NCBI GenBank assembly: GCA_025936205.1
Contig: JAICTU010000472.1
Span: 1-7,046, forward strand
DNA: 7,046 bases
DNA from: Polyangiaceae bacterium
GTDB taxonomy: Bacteria; Myxococcota; Polyangia; Polyangiales; Polyangiaceae
Reading direction: 5' to 3'
Both the position numbers and the translations under genes were made by a program. Each line of letters starts with the position of its first letter. Within the stretch, counting starts at the first letter, position 1. Of the stretch, positions 643 to 7,046 are shown piece after piece. The notes under the pieces are model-generated. The model was not told the origin of the DNA. It saw only the letters and a program-made list of their open reading frames with translations, and did no database searches.

Positions 643-3168
643 TCAGCGCGTGGCGACCGTGGGCACGCGCGTTGCGGGAGGCTGACCTTCCGCAACGGGT
701 GCGCCTGCGATGCCGAAGCGCGCCAGCGCTTGCGCGACGTTGGCGTCGAGCAGCTCGTACTTGCGCGGCGCCAGGCGCGTCAGCCGAGCGAATGGTGCAA
801 TCTGCCTCGCGCTCAGCGCCAGGCGGTACTCACGGTGCGGCTGCACGCGCGCGAGCTCCGCCGCTGGTTCGATGCTGGCTTCGGAGGGAGCGATGGCGCG
901 AGCGGCCTGCATCAGGTCGCTGCCGAGCACGGTCACGACGCTGACCGGCGCAAAGTAGTTCTGGGCCACCAAGTCAGCGAGCCGTGCTTCTCCCGGCTCG
1001 TATGCGCTCGCGCGCGCCGCTTCGGGCAGCCCTGCCACGGCGAAGTCGGCCGGCGCCGCGCGGCGCACGGCCGCCGCGACCGCGCGGCCCAGGTCGGCGT
1101 TGCTCGCCAGCGCTGCGGGCAGCAGCGCCGATTGCTCGCGCGGCAACCAGTGCCAGCGACTGTCGAAGCTGCGGCTCGCGACCAGCGTCGGATCCGACAC
1201 TCGCACCACGACCGCGTCCGCGCCCGACGGGAAGGCGCCCAGCAACTCCGGCGCGAGCGATCCGGCTCCGTAAGCGGCCAGATCCTCCGAGGCGACCCAG
1301 AAGATCAGGCGGCTCGGCGCGTCGGGGTTGTAGTGCACGAGCCCCAGCGCGCGATCGCGCGAGCTCAGCTTGCTGCCGTCGTTCCATTCGATGTTGCCGC
1401 CCTCGAGGCGCACCGGCAGCCGCGCGGCGAGCGCGGCCACCACGGAGTTCTGCGCCACCGTGCCGATCAGGACGAGGTGCCGGCGCGCGACGTCGTCCGG
1501 CGTGACCTCGCTGTCGGCCTTCATGTTCAGCTCGCCGTACAGGTTCTGGTTGTAGGCGACGCCGTCGTCGCCGCCGTCGCGCCCGGGCCTGGACCAGCTG
1601 GCGTTGCTGCTGCGGCTGGCAGCCGTGGCGGCGGCGCGCAGCGCGGCGCGGGTCGCGTCGTCGCCGTGCGTGCCGTACACGATCAGCAAGGGCTCTCCGT
1701 CGTACAGTTGGTTGGCGCCGCCCGGGGTGTGCAAGCGGAAGGGGGACGTCGGCGCGGCGTCGGCGAACAACCAGCTGCCCTCGGCCCGTTCCAGCCAGAC
1801 CTCTTCCGGTAGCGGCGCGGGCAACGTGAGCGCGGGCGCGCCCTCGATGTTGATGCGCAGCGGCTGGTCGCGCTCCAGTGGGGATTCGGCGATGCGCAGC
1901 CGCAAGCTGCGGATGTTGTCGAGCCGCGCCTTCACGCGGTTCCTGGCGCCCACCTCCAGCGCAAAGCGCGCGGGCTTCGGCTCCGGTCCCCACTCGGAGA
2001 TCTCGGCCCAGAACGCGCGCACCGCTTCGCCGTCGAGCGCGGTGAAGTCGAGCTTCTTCACCTCGCGCGACTCCGGGCGCACCTGCTGCGGGAACCAGGC
2101 GTCCGCGCGCGCGGTGCCCTCGCGATAGTTCCAGACGGCGTGCCCGTAACCGGTCGGCTCTTCCAGCGTGACCTTGCCGCCCAGCGCGAGCAGCTTCGAG
2201 AAGGGCCCGCGCGCGCTCAGCACCGGCACTCGATCGTCGTCTTCGCTGTGCAGCGCGTAGATCGGGAAGGTGAGCAGGTTGCCGACGGGCTTGTCGCTGG
2301 CCGAGCCGCACACGGAGCGCCCGGAGGCGAACAGCTGCGGGTAGCGCGAAGCCAGCCACAGCGCGCCGGAGCCGCCCATGCCCCCGCCGACCAGGTGCAC
2401 CCGGCTGCGATCGATCGCCCAGTGCTGGCTCACGTACTCCAGGGCCTGCAGCACGTCCGCTTCCGAGAGCGCGCGGTAGTTGCCGCCGCGAGCGCGGCCC
2501 AGCACCGACAGCTCGAAATAGCCGGCGTGCTCGCGCATGTCGGTCGAGTCCTCGAGGTGGTTGCCGGAGTGGCCGTGCAGCTCCAGCGACAGAGGCGCTG
2601 GATGTGCCGGGTCGTAGTCGGTCGGGATGTTGAGCTTGAAGGGCTGGCCCGAACCGTCCACCGGCGAGCTGTAGGCCCACTCGGTGACGCCGCGCAGCTC
2701 GCTCAGCGCGTTCGGGTTGTCGAGGATCTTGCGCGTCCACTGCGCGAGCCGCAGCCGATCCTGAACGACCTCGCCCGGCTGCTCGCTGAAGCGTTCGCTG
2801 GCGTGTGCCGCGCGGAACTGCAGGTAGCGGATCCAGCCGTGATAGGCGGCGAGGTCTTCGCGCGAGAGGATCTGTTGCACGAGTTGGGCGACGGCGTCCG
2901 GCGTGAGCGGAGCCGCATTGGGGTCGGTGTTGATGGGCAGCGCGGGCGGCTCGGAAGCGGCGGGCGCGGGCGGCTCGGAAGCGGCGCGCGCCACTTCCAG
3001 GCGCTCGGAGGGCTCTCGGCGCGCGACCGAGCGAGTCGGTCGCGGCAGGACCCAGGCGCCGTTCGCTGACGGTTGGGGACTCGAGCTGGGAGCTGCCACG
3101 ACGGCGGGGGCCGTCAGCAGATTCGAGACGCAGGTGCAGAGCGCAGCGGGCAAGAGCCAGTGACGCAT
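643..3168 (-). CDS. Exported prolyl-oligopeptidase/esterase-like alpha/beta-hydrolase protein lacking the nucleophile serine
   Basis: An 841-residue protein with an N-terminal signal peptide (about 1-26, hydrophobic core ending TAPAVVAA), so it is probably periplasmic or secreted. A Pro/Ser/Ala-rich linker (about 27-90) includes a tandem 8-residue repeat. An alpha/beta-hydrolase core follows at about 160-360: LELHGHSG, the nucleophile-elbow region LVGGGMGGSGALWLA, the acid region HSEDDDRVP (Asp311) and the histidine region GYGHAVWNY (His343). The elbow normally reads GxSMGG; here Gly263 (codon 2382-2380, GGC) replaces the serine. A beta-rich segment (about 395-460) and a segment with LIVYG and HLVLIG strands (about 485-650) resemble parts of large bacterial prolyl-oligopeptidase-family proteins. 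Residues about 690-830 resemble a 5'-nucleotidase C-terminal domain. The start is secure: GAGGAG lies 6 bases before the ATG. It may be a pseudoenzyme; the substrate is unknown. Confidence 0.85.
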   Translation of the reverse strand: MRHWLLPAALCTCVSNLLTAPAVVAAPSSSPQPSANGAWVLPRPTRSVARREPSERLEVARAASEPPAPAASEPPALPINTDPNAAPLTPDAVAQLVQQILSREDLAAYHGWIRYLQFRAAHASERFSEQPGEVVQDRLRLAQWTRKILDNPNALSELRGVTEWAYSSPVDGSGQPFKLNIPTDYDPAHPAPLSLELHGHSGNHLEDSTDMREHAGYFELSVLGRARGGNYRALSEADVLQALEYVSQHWAIDRSRVHLVGGGMGGSGALWLASRYPQLFASGRSVCGSASDKPVGNLLTFPIYALHSEDDDRVPVLSARGPFSKLLALGGKVTLEEPTGYGHAVWNYREGTARADAWFPQQVRPESREVKKLDFTALDGEAVRAFWAEISEWGPEPKPARFALEVGARNRVKARLDNIRSLRLRIAESPLERDQPLRINIEGAPALTLPAPLPEEVWLERAEGSWLFADAAPTSPFRLHTPGGANQLYDGEPLLIVYGTHGDDATRAALRAAATAASRSSNASWSRPGRDGGDDGVAYNQNLYGELNMKADSEVTPDDVARRHLVLIGTVAQNSVVAALAARLPVRLEGGNIEWNDGSKLSSRDRALGLVHYNPDAPSRLIFWVASEDLAAYGAGSLAPELLGAFPSGADAVVVRVSDPTLVASRSFDSRWHWLPREQSALLPAALASNADLGRAVAAAVRRAAPADFAVAGLPEAARASAYEPGEARLADLVAQNYFAPVSVVTVLGSDLMQAARAIAPSEASIEPAAELARVQPHREYRLALSARQIAPFARLTRLAPRKYELLDANVAQALARFGIAGAPVAEGQPPATRVPTVATR
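2941..2986 (-). repeat. Tandem 22-bp direct repeat (24-bp period) in the hydrolase linker
   Basis: Identical 22-bp copies lie at 2941-2962 and 2965-2986. In frame they encode two consecutive 8-residue units, AASEPPAP and AASEPPAL, in the low-complexity linker after the signal peptide. The period is a multiple of three, so the reading frame is preserved. This looks like a recent in-frame duplication and could vary in copy number between strains. Confidence 0.85.
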
Positions 3169-3216
3169 CGGGAACTCCTCGAAATTTCTAGAGTCAGGGG
3201 AACAGCGCGTTGCGTC

Positions 3217-3246
3217 ATCGTAGCGGATTTCTTGGCCCGTTGTGAG
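3217..3246 (-). promoter_or_regulatory. Weak candidate promoter for the hydrolase gene
   Basis: On the minus strand, CTCACA (3246-3241) and TACGAT (3222-3217) are 18 bases apart, each matching 4 of 6 consensus positions. Transcription would start near 3210, giving a leader of about 40 bases that contains the strong GAGGAG site at 3180-3175. No better pair was found in the 279-bp divergent region, but matches this weak are common by chance. Confidence 0.25.
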
Positions 3247-3263
3247 ACGATGTAGGTGAAGAG

Positions 3264-3278
3264 CGCAGATCGTCTGCG
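3264..3278. promoter_or_regulatory. Perfect 6-3-6 inverted repeat, possible operator
   Basis: CGCAGA-TCG-TCTGCG is a perfect dyad located 18 bp upstream of the candidate -35 box of the leftward hydrolase gene. The size and placement suit a dimeric regulator. It differs from the TACGAWG-type dyads in front of the repressor gene, so any regulator would probably be a different protein. No regulator can be named. Confidence 0.25.
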
Positions 3279-3396
3279 GGGCCCGAACCCTCGCGAACTG
3301 GATGCGTTCAGAGGGTGCAAGGCATCGGTCTGGCTACTGTTTGACACTCTCGAGTCACGGGGACGCCAGCGCCGATCGAGCCCGCGCTCGTTAATG

Positions 3397-3412
3397 TACG
3401 AAGACCTTCGTT
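3397..3412. promoter_or_regulatory. Operator 1, likely BlaI-type repressor site
   Basis: TACGAAGACCTTCGTT is a near-perfect dyad: the inner ACGAAG-AC-CTTCGT is exact and only the outermost pair fails. It ends on the first two bases of the -35 box. BlaI/MecI-family repressors bind short dyads as dimers and commonly repress their own operons. The half-site here (TACGAWG) is not the TACA/TGTA type known from staphylococci, so binding by the adjacent repressor is inferred from position and pairing with operator 2. Confidence 0.6.
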
Positions 3413-3438
3413 GACAAGTACGATGTTCTTCGTAGACT
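3411..3438 (+). promoter_or_regulatory. Promoter of the repressor-protease operon
   Basis: A perfect TTGACA (3411-3416) is followed after 16 bases by TAGACT (3433-3438, 4 of 6). The predicted start of transcription is around 3444-3447, right at the ATG at 3448, so the mRNA may be leaderless or have only a few leader bases. Operator 1 overlaps the -35 box, and operator 2 fills the spacer and touches the -10 box, which fits steric repression. Confidence 0.6.
3419..3434. promoter_or_regulatory. Operator 2, likely BlaI-type repressor site
   Basis: TACGATGTTCTTCGTA is a 7-2-7 dyad with one mismatched pair. It shares the form TACGAWG-N2-CTTCGTW with operator 1. The two dyad centres are 22 bp apart, about two helical turns, so two repressor dimers could sit on the same DNA face. 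It occupies the promoter spacer and the first two bases of the -10 box. Confidence 0.6.
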
Positions 3439-3447
3439 GAGGCTGCG

Positions 3448-3831
3448 ATGGTCGTGCAGCAGCTGCCTACCGATGCCGAGCTCGCCATCCTGTCGGTGCT
3501 GTGGCGCCTCGGGCCGTCCACGGTGCGGGCCGTGCACGAGCAGCTGAGTCCGAGCCAGGGAACGGGCTACACCACCGTGCTCAAGCTGATGCAGCTGATG
3601 GCCCAGAAAGGGCTGCTGCTACGCGACGAGTCGCAGCGCAGTCACGTGTATCGCGCGGCGAGTGGGGAGGCGCAGACGCAGAAGCGCTTGCTCGGAGATC
3701 TGATGGAGCGCGCGTTCGAGGGATCGGCGTCGCAGCTGGTGCTGCGCGCACTGTCGGTCAAGCGCAGCTCGCCGGAGGAGCTGGAGCAGATCCGGCGCGT
3801 GCTCGATGAGCTGGCGAAGGAGGGCAAATGA
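3448..3831 (+). CDS. BlaI/MecI/CopY-family winged-helix repressor
   Basis: A 127-residue protein, the usual length for this family. The N-terminal winged helix is clear: helix 1 TDAELAILSVLWRLG (8-22), helix 2 STVRAVHEQL (24-33), recognition helix with the family signature GYTTVLKLM (40-48), then the wing with RSHVYRA (64-70). The C-terminal part (about 74-124) is the helical dimerisation region. There are no cysteines, so a copper-sensing CopY role is unlikely. The Asn-Phe bond cleaved in staphylococcal BlaI is absent, so inactivation must use another site or mechanism. It is probably autoregulated through the two dyads overlapping its promoter. Its stop overlaps the start of the M56 protease gene (ATGA), which makes that protease the expected partner. 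A weak GAGG (3439-3442) precedes the ATG. The family is secure; target genes beyond its own operon are unknown. Confidence 0.95.
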   Translation: MVVQQLPTDAELAILSVLWRLGPSTVRAVHEQLSPSQGTGYTTVLKLMQLMAQKGLLLRDESQRSHVYRAASGEAQTQKRLLGDLMERAFEGSASQLVLRALSVKRSSPEELEQIRRVLDELAKEGK

Positions 3832-5339
3832 GCCTGGCTGCGCTGGCGCGCTCGGCCCAGGTCCAGCTGCTGGGCTCGGCGCTGCTGCATTTCCTCTGGC
3901 AGGGCGTGCTGATCGCGGGCGTGCTGTGGCTGCTCCTCGGAGCGCTGCCGCGTGCGCGTGCGCAGGCTCGTTATGCGGCGTGCTGCGCTGCACTCGGGGC
4001 GCTGCTGGCGGCGCCGCTGTTCACGTTGGTGTGGCTCTGGCGCCCGCAAACCGAGTGGCTCGGTGGTGAGAGCGGCCTCGCCTCGTCGAGCTGGTTCTCG
4101 CTCGCGCTGCTGCTGCTCTGGGCGCTCGGCAGCTCGCTGATGCTGGGGCGGCTCGCGTTCGGTCTGCTGATGCTGCGCCGTCTGGTGTCGGGGGCGGAGT
4201 CCGCGCCGAGCGAGTGGCAGCAAGTGCTGGCCCGTCTGGCGCGGCAGCTCGGGCTGCGGCAGGGGGTGCGTTTGCTGGTCTCGCTGCGCGTGGATGCTCC
4301 GCTCGTGCTCGGCTGGTGGCGCCCGGTGGTGTTGGTGCCGCTAGCCGCGCTGAGCGCGCTGCCCCCCTCGTACCTCGAGGCGCTCCTGGCTCACGAGCTG
4401 GCTCACGTGCGCCGCTTCGACTTTCTGGTCAACGTGCTGCAGTGCTGCGTCGAAGCGGTGCTCTTCTATCATCCCGCCGTGCACTGGGTCTCGCGGCGCA
4501 TGCGCGAAGAGCGGGAGCACTGCTGCGATGACGTGGCGATCGCCGTGTGCGGGGATGCGTTGAGCTACGCGCGGGCCTTGACCGAGATGGAGGCGCTGCG
4601 CGCGCCGATCCCAGAGCTGGCACCTGCATCCAACGGAGGTTCTCTCATGCTACGAATCGAACGAATCCTGCGCCGTCCCGATCACCGAACTCAGACCAGG
4701 GCCTATCTCAGCGCCGGTGGCCTACTGGTCGCCGCATTCGGCGCGGCGCTCGCCGGAGTTTGGGCGTGCAGCTCGGCTGAGCCCGAGGTGTCTGCAGCGC
4801 CGGCCACGATAGCATCGGCGAGCGCTGCGCTCTCGATCCCCTGGCTCCCGCCGGTGCTGCAGCGCTGGCAACCGGCGCTGGAGGACAGCGCGCGCCGGCA
4901 CGGCGTCGATCCGGCGCTGCTCGCCATCGTGACCCTGGTCGAGTCGCTGGGCGATCCCGAGGCGCGCAGCCCGGGCGGCGCGCTGGGGCTCATGCAGCTG
5001 ATGCCGTCGACGGCCCGGAGCATCGCCGCCGAGCGCCAGCTGTCCGGCTACTCGGAGAGACAGCTGCTCGATCCGGCCTACAACATCGATTTTGGCGCCT
5101 GGTATCTCGCGCGCCAGCTCGCTGCCTCCGGCTCCGAGAGCAACAGCGCGCGTGCCGTGGAGTTCGCGGCGGTGGGTTACAACGGCGGCCCGCGCATCTT
5201 GCAGTCCTGGCTGCAGGGTACGGCGCCGCTTCCGCCCGAGACCGCGCGCTACCGCGATCTGGTCGTGGGCATGTGGAACGAGCGCGCGTCGCAGGAGTCG
5301 CCCACGTACCAAGCCTGGCGCGAACGCTCGCAGCAGTGA
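3828..5339 (+). CDS. BlaR1-type M56 membrane metallopeptidase fused to an SLT lytic transglycosylase domain
   Basis: A 503-residue protein. Three hydrophobic segments (about 17-40, 49-71, 87-116) precede a cytosolic M56 zinc protease: VDAPLVLGWWRPVVLVP, then HELAH (His189, Glu190, His193) and EEREHCCDD (228-235), in which Glu228 or Glu230 is the probable third ligand. A fourth membrane segment (about 293-313) leads through a linker of about 25 residues to an outer-face domain at about 340-495. This has the hallmarks of SLT/GH23 lytic transglycosylases: VES with candidate catalytic Glu372, SPGGALGLMQLMPSTA (381-396), NIDFGAWYLARQL, GYNGGPRIL around Tyr451, and ETARY. In BlaR1 this position carries a penicillin-binding sensor; no SxxK/KTG-type domain is seen here. 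Translation is coupled to the repressor gene by ATGA, with AGGAGG at 3818-3823. Inferred role: a sensor-protease that responds to peptidoglycan state and controls the repressor. It could instead be a regulated cell-wall hydrolase. Confidence 0.9.
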   Translation: MSLAALARSAQVQLLGSALLHFLWQGVLIAGVLWLLLGALPRARAQARYAACCAALGALLAAPLFTLVWLWRPQTEWLGGESGLASSSWFSLALLLLWALGSSLMLGRLAFGLLMLRRLVSGAESAPSEWQQVLARLARQLGLRQGVRLLVSLRVDAPLVLGWWRPVVLVPLAALSALPPSYLEALLAHELAHVRRFDFLVNVLQCCVEAVLFYHPAVHWVSRRMREEREHCCDDVAIAVCGDALSYARALTEMEALRAPIPELAPASNGGSLMLRIERILRRPDHRTQTRAYLSAGGLLVAAFGAALAGVWACSSAEPEVSAAPATIASASAALSIPWLPPVLQRWQPALEDSARRHGVDPALLAIVTLVESLGDPEARSPGGALGLMQLMPSTARSIAAERQLSGYSERQLLDPAYNIDFGAWYLARQLAASGSESNSARAVEFAAVGYNGGPRILQSWLQGTAPLPPETARYRDLVVGMWNERASQESPTYQAWRERSQQ

Positions 5340-5354
5340 GGCCGCCGGCGGCCT
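5339..5354. terminator. Perfect 16-bp GC-rich palindrome between convergent genes, possible bidirectional terminator
   Basis: AGGCCGCCGGCGGCCT is a perfect palindrome that fills the whole 13-bp gap between two convergent stop codons. It overlaps the last base of the rightward TGA (5337-5339) and two bases of the leftward TAG (5355-5353). As RNA it can form a 6-bp G/C-rich hairpin with a CCGG loop on either strand. There is no T-run, so intrinsic termination is uncertain, but the position suits a shared transcription barrier. Confidence 0.4.
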
Positions 5355-5700
5355 AGGCGTTCAGGGTACGGAGCGTTGCCTCGGGGTCTTCGACCTCGAC
5401 GTACAGTCGATCGTAGCCCGCGCCGCTCAGCTCGATCTCGATGGCGCGAGCCGCGTTGCGTACGTCCCAGAAGTGCTTTTCGCCATTCTTGTAGAAGGTG
5501 CCCGCGGCGATCACTCCCGGCAGATGGGTGCCGGGAATGCGGAACCCCTTCCACATCGCCCAGACTTCCTTCGTATCCATGCGCCGCGCGCTCTTCACCG
5601 CGCTGACGGGCAGCTCGAGACGGCCCTTGAAAGCCAGGAGCTTGTGCAGGCCCCGAACGTCGACCTGCACGCTCTGCCCTTGCGTCGTGATCTCCACCAT
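5353..5700 (-). CDS. Small conserved protein of PH-like appearance, function unknown
   Basis: A 115-residue soluble protein with no signal peptide or membrane segment. It alternates short beta-like strands (EITTQGQSVQVDVRG, RLELPVSAV) with a conserved-looking centre, WKGFRIPGTHLPGVIAAGTF (50-69), then HFWDV (76-80), IEIEL and LYVEVEDPEATLRTL. I recognise this overall pattern as a widespread uncharacterised family. The strand order plus a C-terminal helix is reminiscent of a bacterial PH-like fold, but that is inference. The ATG at 5700 is preferred over an in-frame TTG at 5736: the extra 12 residues look unlike the family start, and AAGG lies just ahead of the ATG. It follows the CNNM transporter gene by 57 bp on the same strand and is probably co-transcribed with it. 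No ligand or reaction can be assigned. Confidence 0.75.
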   Translation of the reverse strand: MVEITTQGQSVQVDVRGLHKLLAFKGRLELPVSAVKSARRMDTKEVWAMWKGFRIPGTHLPGVIAAGTFYKNGEKHFWDVRNAARAIEIELSGAGYDRLYVEVEDPEATLRTLNA

Positions 5701-5757
5701 GGCCCTTGCTTTGGGCGAGTGGCACGGCCGCGTCAAGGGTAGCGGTGCCTGCGGCGC

Positions 5758-7046
5758 CTAATCCTTGGCTTCCGGCGGCTGCTCGGGCGGCTTGATGCGC
5801 ACGCTGCGCACGCGGCGCGGCGACACGTCGACCATCTCCAGCGTGAAGCCATTGTCGAGCGCCAGGGTCTCCCCGGCGCTCGGCACGTGGCCCGCCAGCG
5901 CCATCGACAGGCCGCCGATGGTGTTCCAGTCGCCGTCGTCCGGCAGCTCGAAGCCGAGCACGCGGTTCACCTCGCGTACGGGCAGCGCTCCGCTCACCAG
6001 CACGGAGCCGTCTGCCTGATTGCGGATCGGCGGCGGCGCCGGCCGCGAGTGCTCGCTGAAGATGTCGCCCACGAGCTCCTCCACCAGATCCTCCAGCGTC
6101 ACGATGCCGGCGATCCCGCCCACCTCGTCGACCACGATCGCGAACTTCATCCGCTGCTGGCGCATGTCGCGCAGCAGGTCGACGGCACGCTGCGTCTCCG
6201 GTACGAAGTGCGGCGGGCGCATCAGCTCGGCGAGCGCGCGCGGCTGCTCTTCGAGCGCCGCTTGCAGCAGATCCTTGACGTTCACGTAGCCGACCACGTT
6301 GTCGATCGAGCCGTCGTACACGGGCATGCGGCTGTGGGGTTGCTCGCGCAGGATGGGCCGTAACGCCTTCAGCGGCGTGGACTTCTCGAGCAAGACCGCC
6401 TGCTGGCGCGGCACCATCACGTCCGACACGCGCAGGTCCGGCAGGTCGAGCGCGCGCGAAGCGATCTCGCCGGCCTCGGGATGCAGCGTACCGGTCTTGG
6501 CGGCTTCTTCCACCAGCTGCTGTAGCTCTTCCACGGAGTGTCGGGTCTCGGTGAAGGTGGTGGAATCGCCGAACGGCTTCAGCAGCAGGTTGGCGCTGGA
6601 GCTCAACAGCCAGACGATGGGTCGCGCCAGCCACGAGAGCGTGAGCAGCGGCTTGCCGATCCACAGCGCGTAGGGCTCCGCGCTGCGCAGCGCGAGCGAT
6701 TTGGGCACCAGCTCGCCGATCACGATGGAGAGAAAGGAGATCCCCGTCACGACCAGCACCAAGGCCGCGTCGTGCGCGTGTCCGCTCAGCCCGGGGATGC
6801 CCTCCAGCACGGGCGTGAGATGCAAGGCGAGCGAGGCGCCGCCGAACACCGAGGCCGTCGATGCGATGACCGTGATGCCCACCTGCACGGTCGCCAGAAA
6901 GCGCTCCGGCGCTTCGCGCAGCGCCAGCACGGCGCGTGCCCCGCGCCGCCCCTCATCGACCAGCTCTTTGAGGCGCGAGAGGCGGACGGCGACCACCGCA
7001 ATCTCCGCCCCCGAGAAGACACCGCCCACGATGACCAGCAACAGGA
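5758..7046 (-). CDS. HlyC/CorC-family CNNM-CBS transporter, N-terminus beyond right edge
   Basis: The frame is open from the right edge to the TAG at 5760-5758, showing about 428 residues; a short N-terminal piece including the true start is missing. Numbered from the TTG at 7041, the CNNM (DUF21) membrane domain spans about 1-170 with FSGAEIAVV near the start and GELVPKSLALR at 109-119, a motif typical of the family. A CBS pair follows (about 205-330): DVMVPRQ (207-213), HSRMPVYDG, VVGYVNVKDLL, FAIVVDEVGGIAGIVTLEDL and EELVGDIFSE. The CorC_HlyC domain (about 345-420) contains DWNTIGGL. Family members are inner-membrane proteins linked to Mg2+ or Co2+ efflux or Na+-coupled transport, with CBS domains that bind adenine nucleotides. 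The ion here cannot be decided. Older 'haemolysin' names for the family do not imply toxicity. It is probably in one operon with the small gene downstream. Confidence 0.93.
   Translation of the reverse strand, partial: LLLVIVGGVFSGAEIAVVAVRLSRLKELVDEGRRGARAVLALREAPERFLATVQVGITVIASTASVFGGASLALHLTPVLEGIPGLSGHAHDAALVLVVTGISFLSIVIGELVPKSLALRSAEPYALWIGKPLLTLSWLARPIVWLLSSSANLLLKPFGDSTTFTETRHSVEELQQLVEEAAKTGTLHPEAGEIASRALDLPDLRVSDVMVPRQQAVLLEKSTPLKALRPILREQPHSRMPVYDGSIDNVVGYVNVKDLLQAALEEQPRALAELMRPPHFVPETQRAVDLLRDMRQQRMKFAIVVDEVGGIAGIVTLEDLVEELVGDIFSEHSRPAPPPIRNQADGSVLVSGALPVREVNRVLGFELPDDGDWNTIGGLSMALAGHVPSAGETLALDNGFTLEMVDVSPRRVRSVRIKPPEQPPEAKD

Follow-up and report, generated by a model that had tools for sequence, protein, structure and literature searches.

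In a 7,046-nt stretch of DNA from a Polyangiaceae bacterium (the window, meaning the whole stretch analysed), a gene for a BlaI/MecI-family repressor is followed by an open reading frame that resembles a BlaR1-type receptor in its first part and a lytic transglycosylase in its second. We asked whether this frame encodes one true protein, and whether the periplasmic part would act as a sensor, as a wall-cutting enzyme or as both. The frame is divided as follows.

3828..5339, plus strand: fusion of M56 metalloprotease, TM4 and SLT lytic transglycosylase; 503 aa, ATG start, open frame
3870..4697, plus strand: BlaR1-like membrane and zinc-protease module, residues 15-290, with TM1-TM3 and the protease (HELAH 189-193)
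4698..4772, plus strand: TM4, residues 291-315, identical with a helix of the model and ending in the lipobox-like VWAC with Cys314
4767..4769, plus strand: codon of Cys314, candidate site of lipidation and signal peptidase II cleavage (prediction only)
4773..4835, plus strand: linker, approximately residues 316-336, ahead of the WLP motif at 339-341
4836..5297, plus strand: GH23/SLT lytic transglycosylase domain, residues 337-490, with the Glu372 codon at 4941-4943

A protease and a transglycosylase in one reading frame

The frame has zero internal stops over its 503 aa, and Pfam placed Peptidase_M56 at residues 92-260 (99.1 bits, cut-off 31) and SLT at residues 354-464 (80.7 bits, cut-off 21.3), which bears out the original prediction that both domains share one open frame and that an SLT domain follows residue 340. 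The predicted structure (mean pLDDT 90.1) contains four long helices (residues 10-39, 45-71, 85-121 and 291-315), in agreement with the four membrane segments expected, and by analogy with BlaR1 TM4 would be oriented with its N-terminal end inside and its C-terminal end outside. The linker stretch 317-331 falls below a pLDDT of 50, and residues 337-490 are modelled with a fold of the MltC/Slt type. With HELAH at 189-193 and EREHCCDD at 228-235, the elements of a BlaR1/MecR1-type module are present (four TM segments, M56, HExxH and the distal Glu), as are those of GH23, namely the SLT fold, the Pfam match, an aligned catalytic Glu and the GLMQ and YNGG motifs (GLMQLMP 387-393, YNGGP 451-455). 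Glu372, already put forward as the GH23 catalytic residue, aligned with the Glu of the QES motif in Slt70 (1qsa; position 478 as counted from the alignment).

Conservation and distribution of the fusion

Homologues were taken from a search with 1138 matches, 120 of which were listed and form the set used here. The same single-frame fusion occurs in 15 further loci, and PF05569 and PF01464 are both present in 116 of the 120 listed homologues, the exceptions being P0098 and P0113 (SLT only) and P0107 and P0117 (M56 only). A join of two separate genes by a frameshift or another sequencing or assembly error, an explanation for which no support was found, was therefore rejected, and its probability is close to nil. 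The fusion frames are also open in L142, L137 and L140, where the search had flagged one stop (L082, L093, L096). In an alignment of 107 sequences (the query and those 106 of the 120 listed homologues that reach 470 aa), the zinc-protease residues H189, H193 and E230 are kept in 107/107 and E190 in 106/107, the transglycosylase residues E372, Q390, Y451 and G454 in 107/107 each, and W339 and P341 of the WLP motif at 1.0 and 0.99 respectively.

The source names of the homologues include Polyangium species, Polyangiaceae, a Deltaproteobacteria MAG and a Pseudomonadota MAG. A survey of 377 genomes from the phylum to which Plesiocystis pacifica belongs (Myxococcota; four candidates scored per genome) gave at least 10 with a full fusion. 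Among 183 genomes from the order that includes G369, 8 have one, four of these being shared with the phylum-wide survey; in this order 12 of the 183 genomes matched, G378, G421, G440 and G441 on the SLT side only. A full fusion was also detected beyond the myxobacteria, in a Woeseiaceae MAG, and at least two (L001, L002) were among the 80 loci listed in a wider contig scan, so that over the surveys made 15 genomes (4-13 Mb) carry one.

PF01551 (Peptidase_M23) is present as an additional domain in 20 of the 120 listed homologues, all of which also have M56 and SLT, and in the three M23-bearing members scanned the order is M56-SLT-M23. Of 27 proteins examined for the M23 zinc motifs (19 homologues plus 8 loci, some being the same protein twice, and P0086 with 544 aa left out), 25 have both intact; P0042 and P0089 miss one or both. 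Triple fusions of this kind lie at L145 2055-4055, L143 8792-10636 and L136 766-2712, their hosts being Polyangium-like genomes, G427 and a Woeseiaceae MAG, with the motifs of both hydrolases intact. Some M23 proteins are reported to carry other catalytic domains, M56 among them, which together make up less than 1% of hits; for these M23-M56 proteins the available part of that source names no SLT domain, blaI linkage or mechanism (PMC9662197). M56 proteins and transglycosylases appear as separate genes in PMC2405808, and no description of an M56-transglycosylase fusion was found by title or abstract in the open-access papers searched.

The repressor gene and a conserved predicted operator

The region upstream of the fusion gene contains the following features.

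3397..3412, plus strand: BlaI operator copy 1, TACGAAGACCTTCGTT, one mismatch to TACGAAGNNCTTCGTA; predicted from sequence
3411..3438, plus strand: predicted promoter TTGACA-16-TAGACT, 10/12 matches, overlapping both operators
3419..3434, plus strand: BlaI operator copy 2 (predicted), TACGATGTTCTTCGTA, 22 bp after copy 1, one mismatch to TACGAAG-N2-CTTCGTA
3448..3831, plus strand: BlaI/MecI-family repressor, 127 aa; PF03965 Penicillinase_R, 5.8e-24

The BlaI of the window aligns with the MecI structures 1sd6 and 1okr, and its gene shares 4 nt with the fusion gene. All 15 further full-fusion loci have a BlaI homologue immediately before the fusion and in the same orientation, confirming the proposed coupling to a repressor; the junction is a 4-nt overlap in 11 of these, an 8-nt overlap in one and a 25-nt gap in one, and the called fusion start is ambiguous in two. 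No third gene is kept at one place across lineages, as judged from a neighbour comparison based on rough gene calls, in which several true genes were missed. Three loci share one homologous neighbour gene, at differing places, and the CNNM-type gene near the fusion in the window has a homologue in L144, some 6.8 kb away from the start of the fusion. Divergent from blaI, with which it shares the 279-bp intergenic region, a point that weighs against the closed switch proposed below, the window encodes an 841-aa putative alpha/beta hydrolase (643-3168, minus strand; Peptidase_S9 / esterase match), for which no homologue was detected among the neighbours compared across fusion loci. Convergent with the fusion gene is a 127-aa frame (5353-5736, minus strand), which gave no Pfam or NCBIfam match.

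BlaI operators are dyads starting with TAC and ending with GTA, and the dyad at the blaI promoter fits this class by its sequence. At up to three mismatches the window has two such sites against 0.06 expected, and two or more were obtained in 1 of 200 shuffles. TTGACA-16-TAGACT is the only promoter-like site in 3150-5760 (mean of 0.1 in shuffles). As the blaI ATG follows only 9 nt after the second (-10) hexamer, and similarly closely in several relatives, a leaderless or nearly leaderless blaI transcript is predicted. The operator TACGAAG-N2-CTTCGTA was detected upstream of blaI in 16/16 fusion loci with 0-2 mismatches, and a second copy (1-3 mismatches) at a distance of 22-23 bp in 8 of the 16; this conserved predicted operator at the blaI promoter of the fusion operon is new here.

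When the 15 fusion genomes were searched with this pattern, 15 sites with at most one mismatch were obtained, compared to 9 when the pattern was reversed as a control. Of the 15 sites, fourteen lie at the blaI promoter of a fusion, and the remaining one is in G427, at a place covered by two open frames (203 and 419 aa); G363 and G001 have no such site, their promoter sites having two mismatches. Since close matches are nearly confined to the operon's own promoter, the fusion's repressor has no evident separate target gene, in contrast to BlaR1-BlaI, and the fusion itself is likely the output. At two mismatches 24 sites were counted in G339 (control 11) and 24 in G369 (control 17), the two genomes tried, and as both lie above the control, weak further BlaI targets are possible.

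Among 22 loci with an M56 gene lacking SLT, 21 have a BlaI homologue upstream, and in 6 the gene is preceded by the operator of the fusion loci with no more than one mismatch. Since the operator also serves these pairs, this regulation extends beyond the fusion; the shared operator and the upstream BlaI rather point to a regulatory chassis common to M56 proteins with other periplasmic parts. These pairs have the same blaI layout as the fusion and differ in the periplasmic part, which in ten such proteins scanned with Pfam is TonB_C with CarboxypepD_reg, GWxTD, a PBP transpeptidase or nothing clear, with neither SLT nor M23 detected in any of the ten. The pairs preceded by a TACGA..TCGTA operator (L098, L101, L003, L005, L010 and L012) come from records of Acidobacteria, Bacteroidota and Myxococcota, the operator code being shared across phyla. 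Among other M56 proteins, a Myxococcota protein (L107 1321-3294) of BlaR1-like layout combines a complete PBP transpeptidase domain (PF00905, 1.4e-39) with a TM4 that ends in a lipobox-like VAC, and a 2767-aa frame starting with an M56 module was observed in a Planctomycetaceae MAG (L013 7590-15893).

The counts above bear on the original prediction that the protein senses peptidoglycan and signals through the repressor. In its pure form the SLT domain would bind peptidoglycan or its turnover products without any work on the wall, and the protease would relay this to BlaI in order to control genes elsewhere. Such a role would follow the precedent of BlaR1, whose outer domain is acylated by beta-lactams (PMC9834060), and would suit the BlaI coupling in 16/16 loci, the blaI layout shared with M56 proteins of other periplasmic parts and the two-mismatch sites above control. 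Against it, the 15 genomes contain one operator-like site of at most one mismatch away from the fusion's own promoter, Glu372 is invariant in the alignment though a sensor could lose its catalytic Glu, and a sublineage has acquired a second hydrolase (M23) with intact motifs. We therefore regard a pure sensor as rather unlikely. While the predicted architecture, the BlaI coupling and Glu372 stood, sensor signalling through the repressor is possible and not favoured as the whole story, the purely signalling version being weakened by the kept SLT motifs, the M23 domain added in relatives and the confinement of close operators almost entirely to the own promoter.

Comparison with BlaR1 and a lipobox-like cysteine after TM4

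According to PMC9834060, S. aureus BlaR1 cuts BlaI directly, and SpsB cuts BlaR1 near residue 330, after TM4, thereby removing the sensor, a cut that beta-lactam binding is thought to block. In place of the beta-lactam sensor of the BlaR1/MecR1-BlaI/MecI systems of S. aureus and B. licheniformis, the fusion has a GH23-type periplasmic domain, and Pfam detected no transpeptidase or beta-lactamase domain in it. With the defining sensor domain missing the fusion is, strictly speaking, no BlaR1; by its sequence it is, together with blaI, laid out like BlaR1-BlaI, as a member of the M56/BlaI kind with a different periplasmic domain. In the model, helices 2 and 3 are joined by a short loop (residues 72-84), whereas loop residues 56-86 are unresolved in BlaR1 (PMC9834060). 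The autocleavage bond Ser283-Phe284 of BlaR1 aligns with Ala267-Ser268 of the fusion (read by hand), and the Asn101-Phe102 cleavage site of S. aureus BlaI with Arg100-Ala101 of the window BlaI (by hand, through MecI), and as the Asn-Phe site is replaced by Arg-Ala, cleavage of BlaI is not certain here. The change of both Phe to small residues would be in keeping with an altered protease pocket, as far as such distant alignments go. On the other side of the comparison, the GH23 enzymes MltC, MltE and Slt70 are without the fusion's TM link to a signalling-type protease and without a dedicated repressor gene; MltC is a lipoprotein.

Of the 107 aligned proteins, 93 have a Cys where TM4 reaches the periplasm, preceded by Ala, Gly or Ser in 91 of the 93, and in 78 of the 93 no second Cys follows within the next 200 residues. 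Of the 93 sites, 20 fit a strict lipobox pattern and 30 a PROSITE-like one, and 53, including the window's own VWAC, have Trp at -2; a Polyangium-like member has the canonical form LAAC. Such a Cys (any Cys in the stretch counted) is found in 13 of the 15 genome fusions compared to 5 of 24 M56 proteins on which the fusion profile matched the M56 side only and which were taken as lacking SLT (ten of them scanned with Pfam), a contrast given without a probability because the rows are related; by eye, 2 of these 24 (L011, L107) have a lipobox-like TM4 end. The Cys is missing in 14 of the 107 aligned proteins and in 2 of the 15 genome fusions (L139 by eye, and L143), which means that the family as a whole cannot depend on lipidation. 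Trp at -2 is uncommon at N-terminal lipobox-like signals, as it was seen in 1 of 38 across the fusion loci. In 530 kb of G476, whose fusion is the most similar one (59% identity across two matched pieces), 36 such signals were counted, two with Trp and five with an aromatic residue at -2, against 6 in a control with a -1 residue other than Ala, Gly or Ser; Trp at -2 may therefore be tolerated in G476, provided such signals are real. The lipobox-like Cys after TM4 in the fusion family, recognized from sequence, is likewise new here.

A proposed autoregulated wall-enzyme switch

Given the close operators almost only at the own operon, the fusion as its sole second gene, the intact hydrolase or hydrolases and their place as a receptor's periplasmic domain, the wall enzyme is most simply read as output and sensor at once; the addition of M23 as a second wall-cutting enzyme with intact motifs argues for the effector role. 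We therefore propose, at roughly even odds (about 0.5), a closed autoregulated switch in which the wall enzyme serves as sensor and effector, with predicted lipoprotein release in most members. In the resting cell BlaI would repress the operon and few copies of the membrane protein would remain, their periplasmic domains engaging glycan strands. A change in the wall, be it in occupancy, through damage or by way of muropeptides that reach BlaI, would activate the cytoplasmic protease, as the ligand does in BlaR1, and cleavage of BlaI would derepress the operon and yield more wall enzyme; this relay from protease to BlaI is inferred from the BlaR1 precedent (PMC9834060). In most members signal peptidase II would then cut TM4 at the lipobox-like Cys to give a lipoprotein transglycosylase that cuts peptidoglycan, and the same cut, standing in for the signal-peptidase removal of the sensor in S. 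aureus BlaR1, would also end signalling by that molecule. As a peptidoglycan dipeptide destabilises BlaI/MecI on DNA (PMC3305447), a muropeptide input on BlaI itself is possible by analogy with B. licheniformis, and as lytic transglycosylases make the precursors of such muropeptides, this would create a positive loop. Release of a transglycosylase under control of the protease, the alternative named in the original prediction, fits these data better than sensing alone.

More tentatively, one polypeptide may combine receptor, anti-repressor protease and effector, with TM4 as an internal lipoprotein signal that is split by signal peptidase II. If true, the signalling protease would stay in the inner membrane while the lipidated wall-cutting enzyme goes to the envelope, and the transglycosylase, in some lineages together with the endopeptidase, would be made only as fast as its membrane-bound precursor reports need. 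Wall-cutting enzymes need tight control, for which a dedicated transcriptional switch with the enzyme as its own sensor would be a new answer. It would also show the BlaR1/M56 chassis to be a general receptor for the state of the envelope with exchangeable periplasmic modules, beta-lactam sensing being one case, and the lipobox-like site makes the little-understood signal-peptidase cut behind TM4 of BlaR1 testable as a functional step.

Standalone relatives

Standalone SLT proteins with the WLP motif, the nearest of the standalone relatives, occur in the same order (L146 6132-8063, L147 9193-11457 and L148 615-1268). All three begin with a lipoprotein-like signal peptide, assuming an internal Met as the start in L146 and L147, whose frames look over-extended at the N-terminus, and no BlaI homologue was found beside them in the sequence examined (L148 lies near a contig end). 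Their existence suggests that the SLT domain works without M56 in some genomes, as would be expected if the M56 part were mainly a delivery device or anchor, with signal peptidases processing the transglycosylase regardless of any wall signal and BlaI receiving a separate input such as cytoplasmic muropeptides, which can act directly on BlaI/MecI (PMC3305447). However, both parts are held in one frame in 15 fusion loci and both active sites are strictly conserved, which suggests that the M56-SLT link matters, and we consider a mere delivery role improbable. For the autoregulated switch, the TM4 Cys, these lipoprotein-like relatives and the SpsB cut of BlaR1 (PMC9834060) suggest that sensor shedding has perhaps been turned into lipoprotein maturation.

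In a tree built with 26 of the 107 aligned proteins and 11 of the 15 genome fusions (L166 and L178 were omitted beforehand, and L170, L177 and L181 for a missing motif), the standalone forms may be ancestral or split off, neither being favoured. The fused SLT domains and the three standalone WLP proteins are set apart from 16 generic SLT domains with a support of 97/78, and L145 falls outside the other fused rows.
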